This document shows positions 1-25,693 of a DNA stretch of 32,555 bases, one piece after another (position 1 is the first letter of the stretch; each line of letters starts with the position of its first letter). The notes beneath the pieces are model-generated. The model worked only from the letters and a program-made list of their open reading frames with translations, was not told the DNA's origin and did not search any database. Origin of the DNA: Planctomycetales bacterium (lineage in GTDB: Bacteria; Planctomycetota; Planctomycetia; Isosphaerales; Isosphaeraceae); contig DAIDHX010000098.1 of assembly GCA_027451885.1 (NCBI GenBank), positions 1 through 32,555 on the forward strand, in the 5' to 3' direction. The position numbers and the translations under genes are program-made.

Positions 1-978
1 GGAGCGGGCCGTCTCGGCGATCGCGAGCGCGAAATCGTCCCCCGAAACCTGCTGCGCGGCCGTGACCAGGGTGTGGAAATCGGGGGTGAGCTGGCGGCCG
101 ATGAGCGCGAGGTTGCGCACATATTTAAAATAGATTGTAAGTGCCTGCGGCGTGAGCCGCTCGGCCGCGCGCGGGTGGGTTCGACGCAGCCGTTCCCGGG
201 CGTCGAGCACGAGCTCCTTGACGCCGTCGACGGAGAGATTGTCGTCGGGTTCGAGCGTGCGCCTGCCGCGCTCATAGAGGCCGGTGATGTACGGCAGCTC
301 GCCCAGCACAAAGAGGAGTGTACTGGGATCCACGGGATAGGCGGCCGTGGGCCGGGGGGGCGCATCGGGCGTGGGCGCGGGCAGGTTGCGGGAATAGGCG
401 TCCTTGATCCAGGGCCAGTCGAGGATCGAGCAGACGAAAAGGATGCGCTTCTTGCGGGCTTCGAGCGCGTGGAGCTGCCTGGCCATCCAGGCGATGCGTG
501 CGCGGGTTTGGGGGTGCTCGGGGGCGGCCACGGCCGGCAAGAGCGCCGCGGCAAAGCGCTCCAGGCTCACCCGCTTGAGTGCATAAGGATCGGGGAACTC
601 GCCGGTCACGGCCACGAACCCCGAGGTCTCAAGATCGATGAACGCACGCTCGATCCGTTCCTCGGCCGCGACTCGCAGCGCGGCGATCACACCCTGGCAG
701 GGATCGATGGGAACGTAGCTGTAGCCGCGATCACCCGCCTCATCCTCGCTATCCGGCTGGACGACGATCGAAATCTCCGGCAGCCCCGCCACCGCGGTTT
801 CCACGTCCTCCTGAAACGAAGGAGGCAAGGGGACGGCCAGGCAATCGTAGTCCACGCGGAGCAGCTCGTCCCGCACCACAACCGCGCAATCCCCCGCGCC
901 ATGGATGATCGGCAACACCCGAATCCGTGGCGAAAGCGCCAGGAATTCCTCAGTCGAGCCTGGCTCCGGGTCCGGCAT
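1..978 (-). CDS. Conserved hypothetical protein, possibly EreA/TIKI/DUF5682-like (3' end outside window)
   Basis: The frame is open for 326 codons from an ATG at 978 down to base 1 with no stop, so the C-terminus lies outside the window. The start is supported by a perfect AGGAGG (986-991) seven bases upstream. I do not recognise the family with certainty. The N-terminus has a beta strand ending in an HG pair (residues 26-27, RVLPIIHGAGD), then D45 and a second strand running into VPLPPSF. Around residues 160-190 there is an R..WMA helix followed by a strand (ILFVCSILDW). This order resembles the TIKI/TraB/erythromycin-esterase superfamily and DUF5682 proteins (strand with HG, later RE..MA helix, then a strand with a catalytic His). 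The last His appears to be Asp187 here. DUF5682 genes often sit in MoxR-ATPase clusters, and a MoxR-type ATPase is encoded at 4756-5736, though three + strand genes intervene. Coding is secure; the superfamily link is inference. Confidence 0.72.
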   Translation of the reverse strand, partial: MPDPEPGSTEEFLALSPRIRVLPIIHGAGDCAVVVRDELLRVDYDCLAVPLPPSFQEDVETAVAGLPEISIVVQPDSEDEAGDRGYSYVPIDPCQGVIAALRVAAEERIERAFIDLETSGFVAVTGEFPDPYALKRVSLERFAAALLPAVAAPEHPQTRARIAWMARQLHALEARKKRILFVCSILDWPWIKDAYSRNLPAPTPDAPPRPTAAYPVDPSTLLFVLGELPYITGLYERGRRTLEPDDNLSVDGVKELVLDARERLRRTHPRAAERLTPQALTIYFKYVRNLALIGRQLTPDFHTLVTAAQQVSGDDFALAIAETARS

Positions 979-985
979 TCCCTGT

Positions 986-991
986 CCTCCT
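986..991 (-). promoter_or_regulatory. Shine-Dalgarno AGGAGG of the gene starting at 978
   Basis: A perfect AGGAGG on the minus strand with seven bases to the ATG at 978. It fixes the start and rules out the overlapping ATG-initiated frame that begins just upstream, whose product is arginine-rich and resembles no protein. Confidence 0.75.
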
Positions 992-2515: not shown

Positions 2516-4072
2516 ATGTCGAGCATGGGGCTCGCGATTCCACTGGGCGAGGCGAATCACGTTGTTTCCACGCCCGCGCTCGCCGCGGAGGCGCTTGGGC
2601 TCAAGCGCAGGATCGATCCGGAGCGTACGAGCTTCCAGCGGCTCGAGGAATGGATCTCATCGACGATCGACGCCGATGCCGTGCTGCCTGGACATGGCGG
2701 CTCGATCTGGAACCGGTTGATCAAGGGGCTGCCGGGCGCACGTCGGCGCGGGCCGGCCGCCGGCTCGGCAACGCGGAACCTGCCGCCGGTGTGGGCCCAC
2801 TTTCGCGTCGCTTACAAGCGAGGGATCACGATCGTCACTCTGGTTGACCGAAATCTCGTCAAGCCCGCTCGAGTCGAGGAGCTGCGGGCCGATTTGCTCG
2901 ATCTGATCGAGGCCGATAACCACCGCGTCGTCGTCGATTTCCGCGACGTCGAGCGGTTTTCGAGCTGGGTCGCGGCGATTCTGGTCGAGGCCGCCCGGCG
3001 CGCGGCCGCAAAGCCAGGCGGCATGCTCAAGGTCTGCGGAATCGACCCGCGCGACGCGCGTGTCTTCGCGATCGCGGGACCCAATCGGATCGTCTTCGCG
3101 GCCGACGAACCGGCCGCCCTGGACACCCCCTGGCCCGCCGATCCCGCTCCACCCGCGCTGCCGGTTGAGATCCTCGCCGCGCTGCTTTCCAGCGCGGATG
3201 CCCAGGCGATGGGCGAACAAGCCCCCACAACGCGTGTCCCTGCCACGCGCGACTCCACCCACGCCAGCCGGAGCAGGCTCACCCTGCTCATTCAGCTTGG
3301 CGGCAACAAACCGCGCCCGATCCCAGTGAACAAGGATCGCTACGTGGTCGGCCGCCAGCAAGGCTGCGACCTGCGAATCAACTCCCCCCTGATCAGCAAG
3401 CGGCACGCCGTGTTCCTCGCGCGCAACGGCCAGTACTTTGTGCAGGATCTCGCCAGTACGAACGGCACGATCGTCCGGGGCAAACCGCTCCGAAACGCCG
3501 AGATCCCGGTGCAACACGGTGATCGCGTGCAGATCGGTCCGGCGGTGTGCACGCTGCGTATCGAGCCGGTCGATCCCAGCAAGCGCGGCCGCTCGCTCGC
3601 TCACGATGCGTCACTGCCTGAGCTCGATTGCGCACCCGAGGATCCAGGCCCAACGCTCGCGTTTCCAACCTCCGGGCCAGACCGCGCGTTCCTCGAAGAA
3701 CGTTTCGCCTTCGAGCTGGTGCAAGACGCGCTCGTGGCCACGCCTCGGATGTCGAACCTGCTTGGCGATGAGGAAATCGACGCCCTCCGCGAAGCGCTCC
3801 GGCTCTCACGCCACGATGCCGGCTGCCTTCGCCTGGTGGTGAATCTCGAGAATATCGACCGCGTCGCGCCCCGGGCCATCGGCGTCCTGCTCGCGCATCA
3901 CCTGCGGCTGCATGATCAGGGGGGCGCGATGCGCATCTGCCAGGCCCGGGCGCGGGTGATGACCGTGCTGCACCAGGTGCGGCTCACCATGCTCGTGGAG
4001 TGTTACCCCTCGCTCGACCAGGCCGTGCTCGACGCCTGGCCGCGCGCAAGCGCGCCCGCCGCGCGCGAGTGA
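2516..4072 (+). CDS. STAS-FHA-STAS signalling protein (anti-anti-sigma-like domains flanking a phosphothreonine-binding domain)
   Basis: The 518-residue soluble protein has three regulatory modules. Residues 1-95 are unassigned. A STAS (SpoIIAA-like) domain spans about 97-205, with VVVDFRDVERFSSW matching the phospho-acceptor loop and Ser149/Ser150 at the acceptor position. An FHA domain spans about 255-350 with all hallmark residues: Gly279-Arg280, Ser294-x-x-His297 and Ser314-Thr-Asn316-Gly. A second STAS-like domain covers about 398-508, but its equivalent loop reads ENIDRVAPRAIG, with Ala-Pro where Ser is expected, so it cannot be phosphorylated there. STAS domains are controlled by Ser/Thr kinases of the SpoIIAB/RsbW type, and FHA domains bind phosphothreonine proteins. 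The combination suggests a scaffold linking a Hanks-type kinase to an anti-sigma partner switch. No kinase or sigma factor gene is nearby, so partners are unknown. Confidence 0.88.
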   Translation: MSSMGLAIPLGEANHVVSTPALAAEALGLKRRIDPERTSFQRLEEWISSTIDADAVLPGHGGSIWNRLIKGLPGARRRGPAAGSATRNLPPVWAHFRVAYKRGITIVTLVDRNLVKPARVEELRADLLDLIEADNHRVVVDFRDVERFSSWVAAILVEAARRAAAKPGGMLKVCGIDPRDARVFAIAGPNRIVFAADEPAALDTPWPADPAPPALPVEILAALLSSADAQAMGEQAPTTRVPATRDSTHASRSRLTLLIQLGGNKPRPIPVNKDRYVVGRQQGCDLRINSPLISKRHAVFLARNGQYFVQDLASTNGTIVRGKPLRNAEIPVQHGDRVQIGPAVCTLRIEPVDPSKRGRSLAHDASLPELDCAPEDPGPTLAFPTSGPDRAFLEERFAFELVQDALVATPRMSNLLGDEEIDALREALRLSRHDAGCLRLVVNLENIDRVAPRAIGVLLAHHLRLHDQGGAMRICQARARVMTVLHQVRLTMLVECYPSLDQAVLDAWPRASAPAARE

Positions 4073-4144: not shown

Positions 4145-4789
4145 ATGACACGGCTCGGTCTGGCAGGATGGGAATCGCTTCTTGATCTATCACTTCATGA
4201 GATTTTAAGTGCGCTTTTAATTGGTAGTGCGATGGCCGTGGTACTCGGCGGCTGCTTCGCGCTTGCGCGCAAGCGGATCGCCGATGCGCCGCCGGTGGTT
4301 GGACTCATGGTGCTCGTGGCAAGCGCGCTTGCGATGGCGCTTACGCTGGGATTCATCAAGGAAAGGGAGCAGAATCCCTCGCTTCCGAGCGCAGGCGAGC
4401 GCGCGCTGTTCGCGGGGCAGCCCGCGCCTGCGCCGGCACCCCCTGGCGCGCCGTCCCACGGGCCCATGCCGGGATTTCCGCCGCGCCCGCACTGGCTCGC
4501 CCCGGGCAGCTTCCTCTCTGCCCAGATCATGCGCCTGGCGGACGCCAACGGCGACGGCCGGCTCTCTCACGAAGAAGCCAGGCAGACGCTTGAAACGCTG
4601 CTGAGCGAAGCGGCTGGCTCCGAGCAGGACTCGATGAGCCAGGGGGATCTTGAGGCAGCGATCAACAGGCAGCTCTTCCCAGCGCACGCGCGGCGGGGAG
4701 ACGGCGGCCCAGGCCGCGGCCCCGACAACGGGCGAGCCCATGCCGCGCGCCTGCGTCAATCGTCGGAATCGTCGTCGCGGTCAGGATGA
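4145..4789 (+). CDS. Small membrane protein with two TM helices and one EF-hand
   Basis: A 214-residue protein with a strong ribosome site (GGAGGGAGATC directly before ATG 4145). Transmembrane helices lie at about 20-41 and 50-71, followed by a Pro/Ala/Gly-rich linker (92-120). A helix leads into a textbook 12-residue EF-hand loop, [12 protein letters not shown], with ligands Asp133, Asn135, Asp137, Ser141 and Glu144. A second helix pair (147-177) follows but its loop is degenerate ([16 protein letters not shown]), so only one calcium site is credible. The tail is Gly/Arg/Ser-rich. EF-hand proteins are abundant in planctomycetes; the function here is unknown. The last 34 bases overlap the 3' end of the convergent MoxR gene. 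It lies 72 bases after the STAS-FHA-STAS gene and may be co-transcribed with it. Confidence 0.8.
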
Positions 4790-5736
4790 AGCGGATCGTC
4801 GGGTCCAAAGAACAGATCGCCAAGGCCCAGCGGCGACTGCTGACCGCCGAGCGATCCGCGCTTCTTGCGGGCCAGCCTGGCAAGGTCAAGCGCCTCCTCG
4901 CCGAGCACGCGCAGAAGCGCTTCACGCCAGGCGGTATCGCGGCTCATGGGGTGCGCGGGATCCTGAGCCATCCGCTTGATCGCGTAACGCAGGAGAGTGA
5001 TCCCATCGCGCGGCGAAAACTCCAGCTTGAGCTCGTGCGCCTGCTGGAGAAACTCAACGGTCAGCGCGAGCAGCGCGTCCTCCGCGAAGGGGAGATGATA
5101 CTTCAGAATCGCCATCTCGTCCCCGCGTGAGGGGAATCCAAGCGCGAGCGTGGGCTGCAAGCGCGAAAGAATGTAGTCGGGCACCTCGTAGGTTGACTCG
5201 TCCTCATTCATCGTGACGCAGACTCGGAAGGCGGGATCCGCCGGAATGCTGATGCCGGCCGCGACGCTTTCGACGTAGCGGCGATGGTCAAGCAAGGGGG
5301 CGAGGCTGGCCCATGACTTCTCGTTCATGCGGTTGCCCTCGTCGAGCACACACACGCCGCCCGTGAGCATGGCGGAAACAAGGGGGGAAGCGTGATAGGC
5401 GATCTTGCCGTTCTCAGCGAGCACGGGCGAGACGATGAGATCCTCGGGCCTCGTATCGGCGGTGCACTGGTTGATGAAGATGGGCTGTTTGCGTGTCCGG
5501 GCCGCGGCGGTGGCGAGGGTTGTCTTGCCGATCCCGGGCGGCCCAGTGAGCCGGGGAGAAAGCGGCAAGTCGCGCTCATCGACCACGAGCCAGCACGCCA
5601 GAAGCTGACGCAAGACCTCGCGTTGACCGATCCATTCCTCGTGGGAGCGGTCGGGCATCGCCAGCCGCAAGGGGACGCCATCCACATTCACAACACGAGG
5701 CGACGCGACCGGTTCGCTCGCCGGCTTACTGGCCAT
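4756..5736 (-). CDS. MoxR-type AAA+ ATPase (AAA_5 family)
   Basis: The 326-residue cytoplasmic ATPase has Walker A GPPGIGKT (65-72), Walker [10 protein letters not shown] (128-136; Asp132 and Glu133), sensor-1 Asn177 in VCVTMNEDE, and an arginine-finger candidate in ILSRLQP (Ser191-Arg192). MoxR proteins are chaperone-like ATPases that usually work with a von Willebrand factor A protein to mature or insert metal cofactors or assemble complexes. No VWA partner is visible in this window. The C-terminal lid region (about 215-290) is helical and the protein ends in an acidic tail rich in Asp. The start at 5736 has GAGAGG upstream. The final codons overlap the convergent EF-hand gene by 34 bases, so both acidic and basic tails are encoded by the same DNA. 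A role with the DUF5682-like protein at 1-978 is possible but unproven. Confidence 0.9.
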
Positions 5737-5906
5737 GGTCCGATGATCCTCTCACAGGTCCGCCGAGCGATTTGACTCCGAGGGCCGCTCAGTGGATCTG
5801 ATCCTACCCGCTCCGCGGCGCCGGGGCGAGTCAAACTCGGTTGCCCGTGATCCCAGGAGCCAGCGCCGCAACGCGCCCGAAGGCCATCGCCCCGAACCAG
5901 ATCAAC

Positions 5907-7748
5907 TCACGATGTGCTGGCGTCGCCTGAAAGCAGGCCGCGATTGCTCGTTACCAGCAAGCCGATGTAATCCACCGGGTTCGAGTCTCCGTTGAGCGTA
6001 CCAACCGCGATCACACAGACCCCCGCTCCGTCGGGCGCGGAATTGCCGCTGAAGGAATTCCCGCTGATTCCCAGGTCCGTCACGCCGCTGGCATCGATCG
6101 CGCCGCCAACCGCGGCCGCGGTGTTATCCGTGAAGCTGCTATTCGTGACCGCGAGCGATCCAGACGCCGCGCCCAGAATGGCGCCACCTTCTTTTGCCAT
6201 ATTATCCGTGAATACGATCATGTTAACATTTATAGACTCACCGTAGAGTGCGGCGAGGGCTCCGCCGGCGATCTGGGCGGAATTGCCCTCGAAAGTGGTC
6301 TGGGACACGGTGAAATCCGTGTCCCGCAGGCTATAAACCGCCCCCGCCAGCGAGCCCGAGGAATTCCCCTTGAAGGTACTGCCAGAGACCGTGAACGACC
6401 CGTTGGAGATGGACGCGATCGCGCCGCCGTCGAGGCCTGCGCTTTCGCTTTCAAACTCGCAGCCGCTCACCCGCCCCGAGCCCAGGTTCTGGCCCAGGAT
6501 CCCGCCGCCGACGCTCGATGCCGTGTCGTTGCTGAAGCGGCAATCGCTCACGGCGAACGCCTGGGCGCCCACCACGCCGAGCGCGCCTCCAGAAGGCGCC
6601 AGGTTGCCGCTGAACGAACATACGCGGAGCATCGCCTGCTGGTCGTTCGTGGAACCAAACGCCCCACCCGAGTCGGTCGCCGAGTTCGCGGTGAATCGTG
6701 AATACGCGACATCCACCCCCGCGCCGTTCTCGCTGAAAATCGCGCCGCCGTCAAACCCAGCCGAGTTGTTCTCAAAGCTGCTCAGGAAGACGGAGGCGGC
6801 CTTCACGGCGGAGCTTTCGATCGCGCCGCCGTCGATCCCCGCGCTGTTGCCCGCGAAGTCGCTCCAGGCGACCAGCAGCCGCCCCGTGCTCTCAATCCCC
6901 CCGCCCATGCCCTCCGACGCCGTGTTCTGCTCAAATCCGCTCGCAAGGACCGTCGCGAACCCGCTGCTCCAGATTGCTCCTGCTTCATACTGGCTCGCGT
7001 TGCCGCTGAACGTGCAGGCGGAAACCGCCAGTAATCCCGAGTTATTGATCGCGCCCCCCTGCGAGACCTGCACGCTGAGATTGGCGCAATTGCCCGTGAA
7101 GCTGGTTCCGCTCACCACAAGGATCCCGGCATTATCAATCGCGCCGCCCGCGCTTGCGCGATTGGACGCGAACGCCGATCCATCCACCCGCAGCTCACCC
7201 TGGTTCTCGATCGCTCCGCCCTTGCCAGAAGCATTGTTATTGGATACCACCATGTTTTCAAGTGTAAGATTACCAAGGTTCAGGATCGCGCCGCCCGAAC
7301 CGTCAAAGCTCGCCGTGCCGGCGGGATTGGCCGCGACGCCGTTGCCGCCCACGAGATTAAGATTGATCATATGCACGTTTGAACCAAGAGCGATTTCGAA
7401 AATCCGTGACGCGCCCGCGTCTGAGATCGAAGGCGGCTGCGGCGACTCGCCGCGGATGGTGATGTTCTGGCTCAGAACCAGTTCGCCCTGGGTGAGCACG
7501 ATGGGGCCAGGGATCTGCGAGGTAAGCAGGATGGTGTCGCCGCGCTGGGCGTGATCGACGGCGTAGCGGAGCGTGCCGACCTCGCTTGCGACGTCCGCAT
7601 TGCTGGTCACGGTCAACGTTGAGAGCAAGGATCGGGCTTCCAGGCCGAGACACGCCGGGCGGAACGCTGCGCGACGCCGCGTCCGGCGCGAGTTGACACG
7701 GCGGGAGCGGACCAGCCGGTGCAGCGTGAATGGCAGGCTCGTTGGCAT
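5907..7748 (-). CDS. Exported GGAI/FxxN-repeat parallel beta-helix protein (Pmp-like)
   Basis: The 613-residue protein starts with a basic leader (RRTRRRAAFRP, residues 21-31) followed by GLEARSLLS (35-43). That is the planctomycete extracellular-protein signature usually seen as LExRxLLS, followed here by the customary strand and GTLRYAVDHA. From about residue 140 on it consists of some fifteen repeats of roughly 30 residues, built from a GGAI turn (nine exact copies, plus GGAL, GGGI and AGAI variants) and FxxN (FTGN, FSGN, FENN and others). These are the same two motifs that define chlamydial polymorphic membrane proteins, and they fold as a right-handed beta-helix. There is no C-terminal autotransporter barrel. 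I chose the start at 7748 because the signature follows it at the usual distance; the frame is open to 8003, but the extension is not protein-like. Likely a surface or secreted adhesin-like protein; ligand unknown. Confidence 0.85.
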   Translation of the reverse strand: MPTSLPFTLHRLVRSRRVNSRRTRRRAAFRPACLGLEARSLLSTLTVTSNADVASEVGTLRYAVDHAQRGDTILLTSQIPGPIVLTQGELVLSQNITIRGESPQPPSISDAGASRIFEIALGSNVHMINLNLVGGNGVAANPAGTASFDGSGGAILNLGNLTLENMVVSNNNASGKGGAIENQGELRVDGSAFASNRASAGGAIDNAGILVVSGTSFTGNCANLSVQVSQGGAINNSGLLAVSACTFSGNASQYEAGAIWSSGFATVLASGFEQNTASEGMGGGIESTGRLLVAWSDFAGNSAGIDGGAIESSAVKAASVFLSSFENNSAGFDGGAIFSENGAGVDVAYSRFTANSATDSGGAFGSTNDQQAMLRVCSFSGNLAPSGGALGVVGAQAFAVSDCRFSNDTASSVGGGILGQNLGSGRVSGCEFESESAGLDGGAIASISNGSFTVSGSTFKGNSSGSLAGAVYSLRDTDFTVSQTTFEGNSAQIAGGALAALYGESINVNMIVFTDNMAKEGGAILGAASGSLAVTNSSFTDNTAAAVGGAIDASGVTDLGISGNSFSGNSAPDGAGVCVIAVGTLNGDSNPVDYIGLLVTSNRGLLSGDASTS

Positions 7749-8194
7749 GGTGGATCCCCCGAGTGGTGGGGCGTCATTCGCCTGGAGGGTGACGAGGCGG
7801 GGCATGGTCCGGGTCGGCGCGGTTTGCTCGCATACGCCGCCGCCTTCAAAACCGTAGGCCAGGGCGCGTCTGATTTCCTGGGACGTGGTCGTAAGAAGAC
7901 GGTCGTTTCGCGATGGCGACGTGCGCTTCTGCCAGGCAGCGGCGCGGACCCTTTCAAGCCGCGGGCTGGGCCTGTGCACGCCGATGCTTGCTGCGGCATC
8001 CACCCCGGCCTGGATGGCGGACCGGCGGCCGCCAGGCCGTCACAAGGAGACGGTCGCCAATCAAGAAGTGCGCGGCCGATTCAAACCGGGAAGACAAAGG
8101 CGGATTGCCGCCTGCCACGGCTCGCGATACCCTCAAAGTCCCATTCACAGAATCGTCACAGGGATGCGCGCGCTCGATCCGCGGAGGATACACC
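7749..8194. other. Divergent intergenic region with no gene seen
   Basis: These 446 bases separate the beta-helix gene (-) from the DUF502 gene (+). Both neighbouring frames run open into the region, but with Arg/Pro-rich products lacking domain features. Ribosome sites and N-terminal signatures place the true starts at 7748 and 8195. The region should hold both promoters, but I could not identify a confident -35/-10 pair. I see no RNA gene or repeat. Confidence 0.5.
8183..8187 (+). promoter_or_regulatory. Shine-Dalgarno GGAGG for the DUF502 gene
   Basis: GGAGG lies seven bases before ATG 8195. It decides that start over the long upstream extension of the frame, which opens at 7913. Confidence 0.7.
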
Positions 8195-25149: not shown

Positions 25150-25518
25150 TCAGCTCGTGCCGAGCGCATGGATCGCGGCCGACTCGCTGTCGCACACCTC
25201 CGCGACCTGGGCAAGACCAACAATATCCGCACCCACCTTCACGGCCGGCGCCATGCCGCAGATCACCACGCGCCGACCCTCGTTCTTCGCCTTCAGTGCC
25301 AGCTTGAACAGCACCGCGAACCCGGTACTGCTCAGGAACTCAACCTTGTGAAGGTTGACCACCACCTTCTTCGCCCAGTCCTGGGCGGTGACGAGCTCGA
25401 GCTCGCCGCCGAGCTCCTGCGCCAGCTTGGGCCCCTGCAAATCCCGAGTGCGGATCTCCACCACCGCCACGTCCTTCACCATCTCCACACCAAGATGCTG
25501 AAACCCAGGTTCGGCCAT
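25150..25518 (-). CDS. STAS-domain protein (anti-anti-sigma factor-like)
   Basis: A 122-residue single STAS domain of SpoIIAA/RsbV type and normal length. Strand VAVVEIRTRDLQGP, strand KVVVNLHKVEFLSSTGFAVLF and VVICGMAPAVKVGADIVGLAQVAEVCDSESAAIHAL give the expected order. Ser63 or Ser64 in FLSSTG fills the phospho-acceptor position, so it could be switched by an RsbW-like kinase. The start at ATG 25518 has GGAG seven bases upstream; the upstream extension to 25605 is not domain-like. It is the first gene of the operon with murQ and the sugar kinase, with 16 bases to murQ. No anti-sigma kinase or sigma factor gene is in the window. Confidence 0.9.
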   Translation of the reverse strand: MAEPGFQHLGVEMVKDVAVVEIRTRDLQGPKLAQELGGELELVTAQDWAKKVVVNLHKVEFLSSTGFAVLFKLALKAKNEGRRVVICGMAPAVKVGADIVGLAQVAEVCDSESAAIHALGTS

Positions 25519-25693
25519 GTGCAGCTCCAGGGAAACGACCAGCGCAAGCCAACAAGGCCAGGCGCGATGATCCATCGTACCACGCGTTCCAAGCCTGGGG
25601 GGCAAACGCGCGCGAACGTGAGATGGAATCCGTCGGCCTGGCTCCGCTTTTTGGGTGCGTGAGGGAGCGACCGGAAGCGATCGCGGCGGGGGA

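Follow-up and report, generated by a model that had tools for sequence, protein, structure and literature searches.

Introduction

The known SpoIIAA and RsbV proteins each consist of one small STAS domain whose acceptor loop reads D-S-[ST]-G. In B. subtilis the phosphorylated residue of SpoIIAA is Ser58 (PMC3517971). RsbS has one acceptor as well, Ser59, which is phosphorylated by RsbT (PMC6760441). Among proteins that recognize phosphothreonine through an FHA domain, GarA, OdhI and DgcB each take a tail of the same protein as ligand, and a hydrophobic residue at +3 is important for this (PMC6733907). In DgcB of Bdellovibrio, an FHA-GGDEF protein, the FHA domain has been proposed to read a phosphopeptide of the same protein and so gate the output domain. 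The stressosome proteins RsbR and RsbS are not known to carry an FHA domain.

Here we analyze a gene for a 518-residue protein that combines these modules in the order STAS-FHA-STAS. The gene lies in a 32,555-nucleotide stretch of planctomycete DNA, referred to as the window. A preliminary description of the window knew of no described system with this order, and a search confined to the open full-text literature likewise found none. While the parts are known, their combination, its conservation and a motif in one linker appear to be new. We tentatively view the product as a STAS-based scaffold or switch of the Isosphaeraceae that is gated by its FHA domain, a reading that we consider quite possible though short of probable, with a mechanism that we infer.

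Two STAS domains flank an FHA domain

The coding sequence (2516-4072, + strand) is preceded by a Shine-Dalgarno-like GGAGGAGG (2502-2509, +), identified by inspection 5' of the ATG. The start, MSS..IPL, is common to the protein and its two same-genus orthologues, and both features indicate that the open reading frame proposed earlier is real. Residues 41-52 (2636-2671, +) contain a conserved motif, [RK]-x-E-[DE]-W-[IV], modeled as a low-confidence helix, and its tryptophan, W46, is kept in 25/25 orthologues.

Pfam searches, run on separate segments of the protein, returned the order STAS, FHA, STAS. STAS1 (residues 93-207; 2792-3136, +) matched STAS (E = 1e-6) and STAS_2 (E = 1.9e-8) with scores of 28.9 and 34.8 bits, above both curated cut-offs (PF01740/PF13466), and also matched SpoIIAA and RsbS profiles. 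STAS2 (residues 396-508; 3701-4039, +) matched STAS (E = 1.6e-5) with 25.1 bits, above the PF01740 cut-off of 22.6 and below the PF13466 cut-off of 29.2, and matched SpoIIAA profiles. For profiles of either half, the best solved structure was SpoIIAA. Scores fell below the NCBIfam cut-offs for anti-sigma factor antagonists (TIGR00377, 50.7 versus 53.45 bits; TIGR02886, 37.1 versus 114.75 bits).

Structure prediction, with the superposition on SpoIIAA that the preliminary description had recommended, gave the same picture. Folded alone, STAS1 yielded a confident model (pLDDT 87.8) with Z = 14.8 to SpoIIAA (1th8_B), and the predicted fold of STAS2 reached Z = 16.5 to the same chain. The full-length model had a mean pLDDT of 61.8 and a pTM of 0.42; the FHA and STAS2 portions of it fit known structures well, but the placement of domains relative to each other is poor and the model is therefore uninformative on linker docking. 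The preliminary description had named the lack of a STAS fold at residues 97-205 or 398-508 as the result that would overturn it; Pfam, SpoIIAA profiles and fold superposition instead support a STAS domain in both regions. Its claim of two STAS-like domains around a complete FHA domain is thus borne out by HMMs and predicted folds alike.

The FHA domain (residues 253-351; 3272-3568, +) matched PF00498 with E = 1.1e-19 and 71 bits against a cut-off of 20.7. The phosphothreonine-site residues that had been listed for it, R280, S294, H297 and N316, are present and invariant in 29/29 aligned proteins. Among solved structures, the domain comes closest in sequence to TB39.8 (FhaA), OdhI and GarA and in predicted fold to GarA, TB39.8, OdhI, EmbR and DgcB, with Z of about 17 to OdhI, GarA and EmbR. 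The score for the OdhI equivalog of NCBIfam was 35.8 bits, short of the 200-bit cut-off.

A profile-profile comparison aligned STAS1 with STAS2 at 99.1% probability over the whole domain, including the closing tryptophan, and on this sequence evidence the two are mutually homologous. Together with a domain order that is kept in 25 genomes, this match argues that the STAS architecture is not a chance resemblance.

The domain order recurs in the Isosphaeraceae

A search for the domain order across Planctomycetes, as the preliminary description had advised, was made with an alignment profile. Matches were obtained in 26 of 45 Isosphaeraceae genomes, comprising 25 full STAS-FHA-STAS genes and one clipped at a contig end; Paludisphaera soli and Aquisphaera insulae are among the species that have the gene. 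Across 392 sampled genomes of the phylum, the window's own genome gave the only full-length match. The other matches listed in that sample centered on the FHA part, and no STAS domain was found in the open reading frames retrieved for them.

Variant orders also occur: one genus contributes four genomes with FHA-STAS-FHA-STAS (loci L138-L141), two genomes have FHA-STAS-FHA (L110 and L044) and one has FHA-STAS (L111). Taken with the homology of STAS1 and STAS2, these arrangements suggest that FHA-STAS units have been shuffled or lost.

The gene is missing from 19 of the 45 family genomes, some of them incomplete, so it is not essential. Such patchiness could be expected of a degenerate relic without a switching role, retained for other reasons, but the three domains and the phosphothreonine site are strongly conserved among orthologues of 28-60% identity, and we regard this explanation as very improbable.

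A conserved serine asymmetry between the STAS domains

The preliminary description had reported Ser149/150 in the acceptor loop of the first STAS domain and Ala-Pro in the second, and the loops read accordingly, as FSSW at residues 148-151 of STAS1 (S149-S150, 2960-2965, +) and VAPR at residues 450-453 of STAS2 (A451-P452, 3866-3871, +). In the HMMER alignment it is S150, not S149, that lies opposite the acceptor Ser58 of SpoIIAA, and in the predicted STAS1 model S150 opens helix 2. Across the orthologues, 24 of 25 have Ser at position 150 and the remaining one has Cys, position 149 varies (S10 G8 A4 T3) and position 151 is mostly Trp. On the alignment and this conservation, we rejected S149 as the acceptor in favor of S150.

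The STAS2 counterpart, position 452, is not Ser in 24/25 orthologues (G12 R8 P2 N2 S1). Its neighbor, position 451, is Ser or Thr in 22/25 (S18 T4 A2 P1), so that the description of STAS2 as not phosphorylatable holds strictly mainly in the window's genus. Judged from the residue counts at 150 and 452, the Ser asymmetry between STAS1 and STAS2 is conserved, although STAS2 often carries a hydroxyl residue at the preceding position. In the FHA-STAS-FHA-STAS relatives, Ser occupies the acceptor position of both STAS domains. Neither loop of the STAS-FHA-STAS protein has the canonical D-S-[ST]-G form: STAS1 is without its Asp and Gly, the place of the Asp being taken by S/G/A/T, and STAS2 is without its Ser.

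The main rival to an FHA-gated switch is a scaffold that does without Ser switching. Here the STAS domains would do no more than assemble, either with one another or with further STAS proteins, in a stressosome-like manner, S150 would serve as a helix cap, and the FHA domain would recruit phosphorylated clients. The non-canonical acceptor loop of STAS1 is consistent with such a scaffold, as are the nearness of its predicted fold to stressosome proteins too (RsbS 6jhk, Z = 13.6), a conservation that spans the whole of STAS2 at a level slightly above that of STAS1, and the lack of a partner-switch operon at the loci compared. However, a pure cap could be Thr, Asp or Asn, none of which occurs at position 150, where Ser is kept in all but one orthologue even though the adjacent residue varies freely. 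We judge this rival to be somewhat unlikely.

A candidate FHA self-ligand in the FHA-STAS2 linker

The linker between the FHA domain and STAS2 is on average the least conserved stretch of the protein. Within it we found a feature that the preliminary description had missed, T380-L-A-F383 (3653-3664, +), a candidate phosphothreonine self-ligand of the FHA domain. The pattern T-x-x-[FLMVIY] is present in 21/25 FHA-STAS2 linkers, compared with 10.7 in shuffled sequences, and 0 of 2000 shuffles scored as high; Thr occupies the aligned linker column in 21/25, and T-x-x-hydrophobic is missing from 4/25. In the same shuffle comparison, neither shifted spacings, nor Ser replacing Thr, nor the STAS1-FHA linker gave such an enrichment. 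The excess persists when the sequences are dereplicated at 45-60% identity, with a shuffle frequency of about 0.003 to 0.03, which makes the enrichment only moderately significant. The pattern was spotted on the same sequences before it was tested and is accordingly a lead, not proof. Given the recurrence of T-x-x-hydrophobic next to the FHA domain, a self-ligand at this position is plausible by analogy with those of GarA, OdhI and DgcB.

Gene neighborhood and signaling genes

Downstream and convergent with the STAS-FHA-STAS gene lies a gene for a MoxR-like AAA ATPase (4756-5736, -; Pfam AAA_5, 8.9e-21), and the same convergent arrangement is found in 10 of 11 loci of the closer clade. The ATPase gene is a conserved neighbor in this clade, and any joint action of its product with the STAS-FHA-STAS protein would be hypothetical. 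In several genomes a conserved divergent open reading frame lies upstream, for example at 1-990 (-) of the window and at 5652-7637 (-) of locus L093. It encodes 620-660 residues when complete, the window copy being clipped by the contig start, and it gave no Pfam match. Another candidate for a conserved upstream neighbor, Gene A (73-1122, +), was discarded as it looks like the antisense of the minus-strand frame at 1-990. Next to the STAS-FHA-STAS gene, the conserved neighborhoods showed no gene for a kinase, a phosphatase, or an RsbW-like or anti-sigma protein.

Two further genes flank the locus in the window. A Bestrophin-like gene upstream (1107-1982, +; PF25539, 7.8e-58) was found at the related locus L052 and in no other neighborhood compared. 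A 698-residue open reading frame (5907-8003, -) encodes Chlamydia-type polymorphic membrane protein repeats (PF02415, 1.2e-20) and had a tblastn match in none of the related neighborhoods compared. We also considered a role in anti-phage defense, for which PADLOC gave no match to the STAS-FHA-STAS protein.

Five genomes of three genera carry the gene in an array with pyrB, pyrC, a NYN/YacP-like gene, sucC and sucD (names assigned by eye). Along with the nearness of the FHA domain to GarA and OdhI, this array would fit a metabolic regulator of the GarA/OdhI kind, in which the ligand of the FHA domain is a metabolic enzyme or the protein's own phosphothreonine and the STAS domains serve dimerization or ligand binding. 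However, the array is clade-specific and sucC lies elsewhere in the ten genomes searched, so we rejected a general link to sucCD/pyrBC, and a regulator of this kind needs neither the conserved Ser asymmetry nor two STAS domains. We consider it quite improbable.

The mapping of Hanks-type kinases and RsbW-like proteins that had been suggested for the window's genome returned 79 Pkinase match stretches (representing fewer genes, since some open reading frames give two) and three clear HATPase_c_2 proteins. Six SpoIIE domains were also found, two of them sharing an open frame with an FHA domain, and a STAS gene adjoins SpoIIE. Both kinds of circuitry therefore exist in this genome. The frames that join FHA and a SpoIIE phosphatase lie at C52:30606-34012 and C312:15986-17548 of the genome (G000), the former with a Hanks-type kinase gene just upstream. 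Within the window, a second, single-domain STAS gene (25153-25605, -; PF01740, 9.4e-10) lies about 21 kb from the STAS-FHA-STAS gene and adjoins a SIS-domain gene.

Discussion

The protein shares with SpoIIAA and RsbV the STAS fold in both of its halves and a Ser, S150, at the acceptor position Ser58; it differs in having two STAS domains and an FHA domain, a non-canonical loop and a gene outside any sigma operon. With RsbR and RsbS it shares STAS modules and a similar predicted fold, in which S150 corresponds to Ser59 of RsbS, but no RsbT-type gene neighbors its own. GarA, OdhI and FhaA (TB39.8) provide the closest FHA sequences and folds, in proteins unlike this one with its two STAS domains. 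The T-x-x-hydrophobic motif in the tails of GarA and OdhI has a counterpart in the FHA-STAS2 linker, although theirs is in an N-terminal tail and the one described here is C-terminal to the FHA domain. In DgcB the output domain is GGDEF, whereas here it would be STAS, and FHA self-binding is putative.

From these comparisons we infer how an FHA-gated STAS protein may work. One of the many Hanks-type kinases would phosphorylate T380 of the linker or a client protein, and the FHA domain would bind that phosphothreonine, whether within one chain or on another copy of the protein, as in GarA, OdhI and DgcB. Binding could mask or re-position the neighboring STAS faces and so lead to capture or release of a partner, which might be a GHKL-type kinase or a different STAS protein. 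A second switch, driven by Ser phosphorylation, may reside at S150 of STAS1, while STAS2 would supply the fixed or structural face.

The preliminary description had proposed a partner-switch scaffold gated by phosphothreonine recognition, with one switchable and one constitutive STAS face. The parts of it that find support are both STAS folds, the intact phosphothreonine site and the conserved Ser asymmetry; S150 would be a putative phosphorylation site, STAS2 a hypothetical constitutive face and an RsbW- or RsbT-like kinase a hypothetical partner. A simple partner switch fares less well, given the non-canonical STAS1 loop, the predominance of Ser or Thr at position 451 and the absence of a kinase, phosphatase or anti-sigma gene among the neighbors seen. 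We consider unlikely the most specific version, in which a Hanks-type kinase phosphorylates the protein's own linker and the FHA domain reads this mark to control STAS partner switching through one Ser-switchable and one fixed face, which would make it a bacterial switch of a class not described before.

Hanks-type Thr kinases with their FHA readers, on the one hand, and STAS partner switching, on the other, are usually studied as separate systems, and the STAS-FHA-STAS protein may connect these two phosphorylation systems. If so, a conserved single protein joining both would give them a concrete meeting place, open to testing, in the Isosphaeraceae, a family whose signaling is poorly understood and in which the window's genome is rich in both systems.
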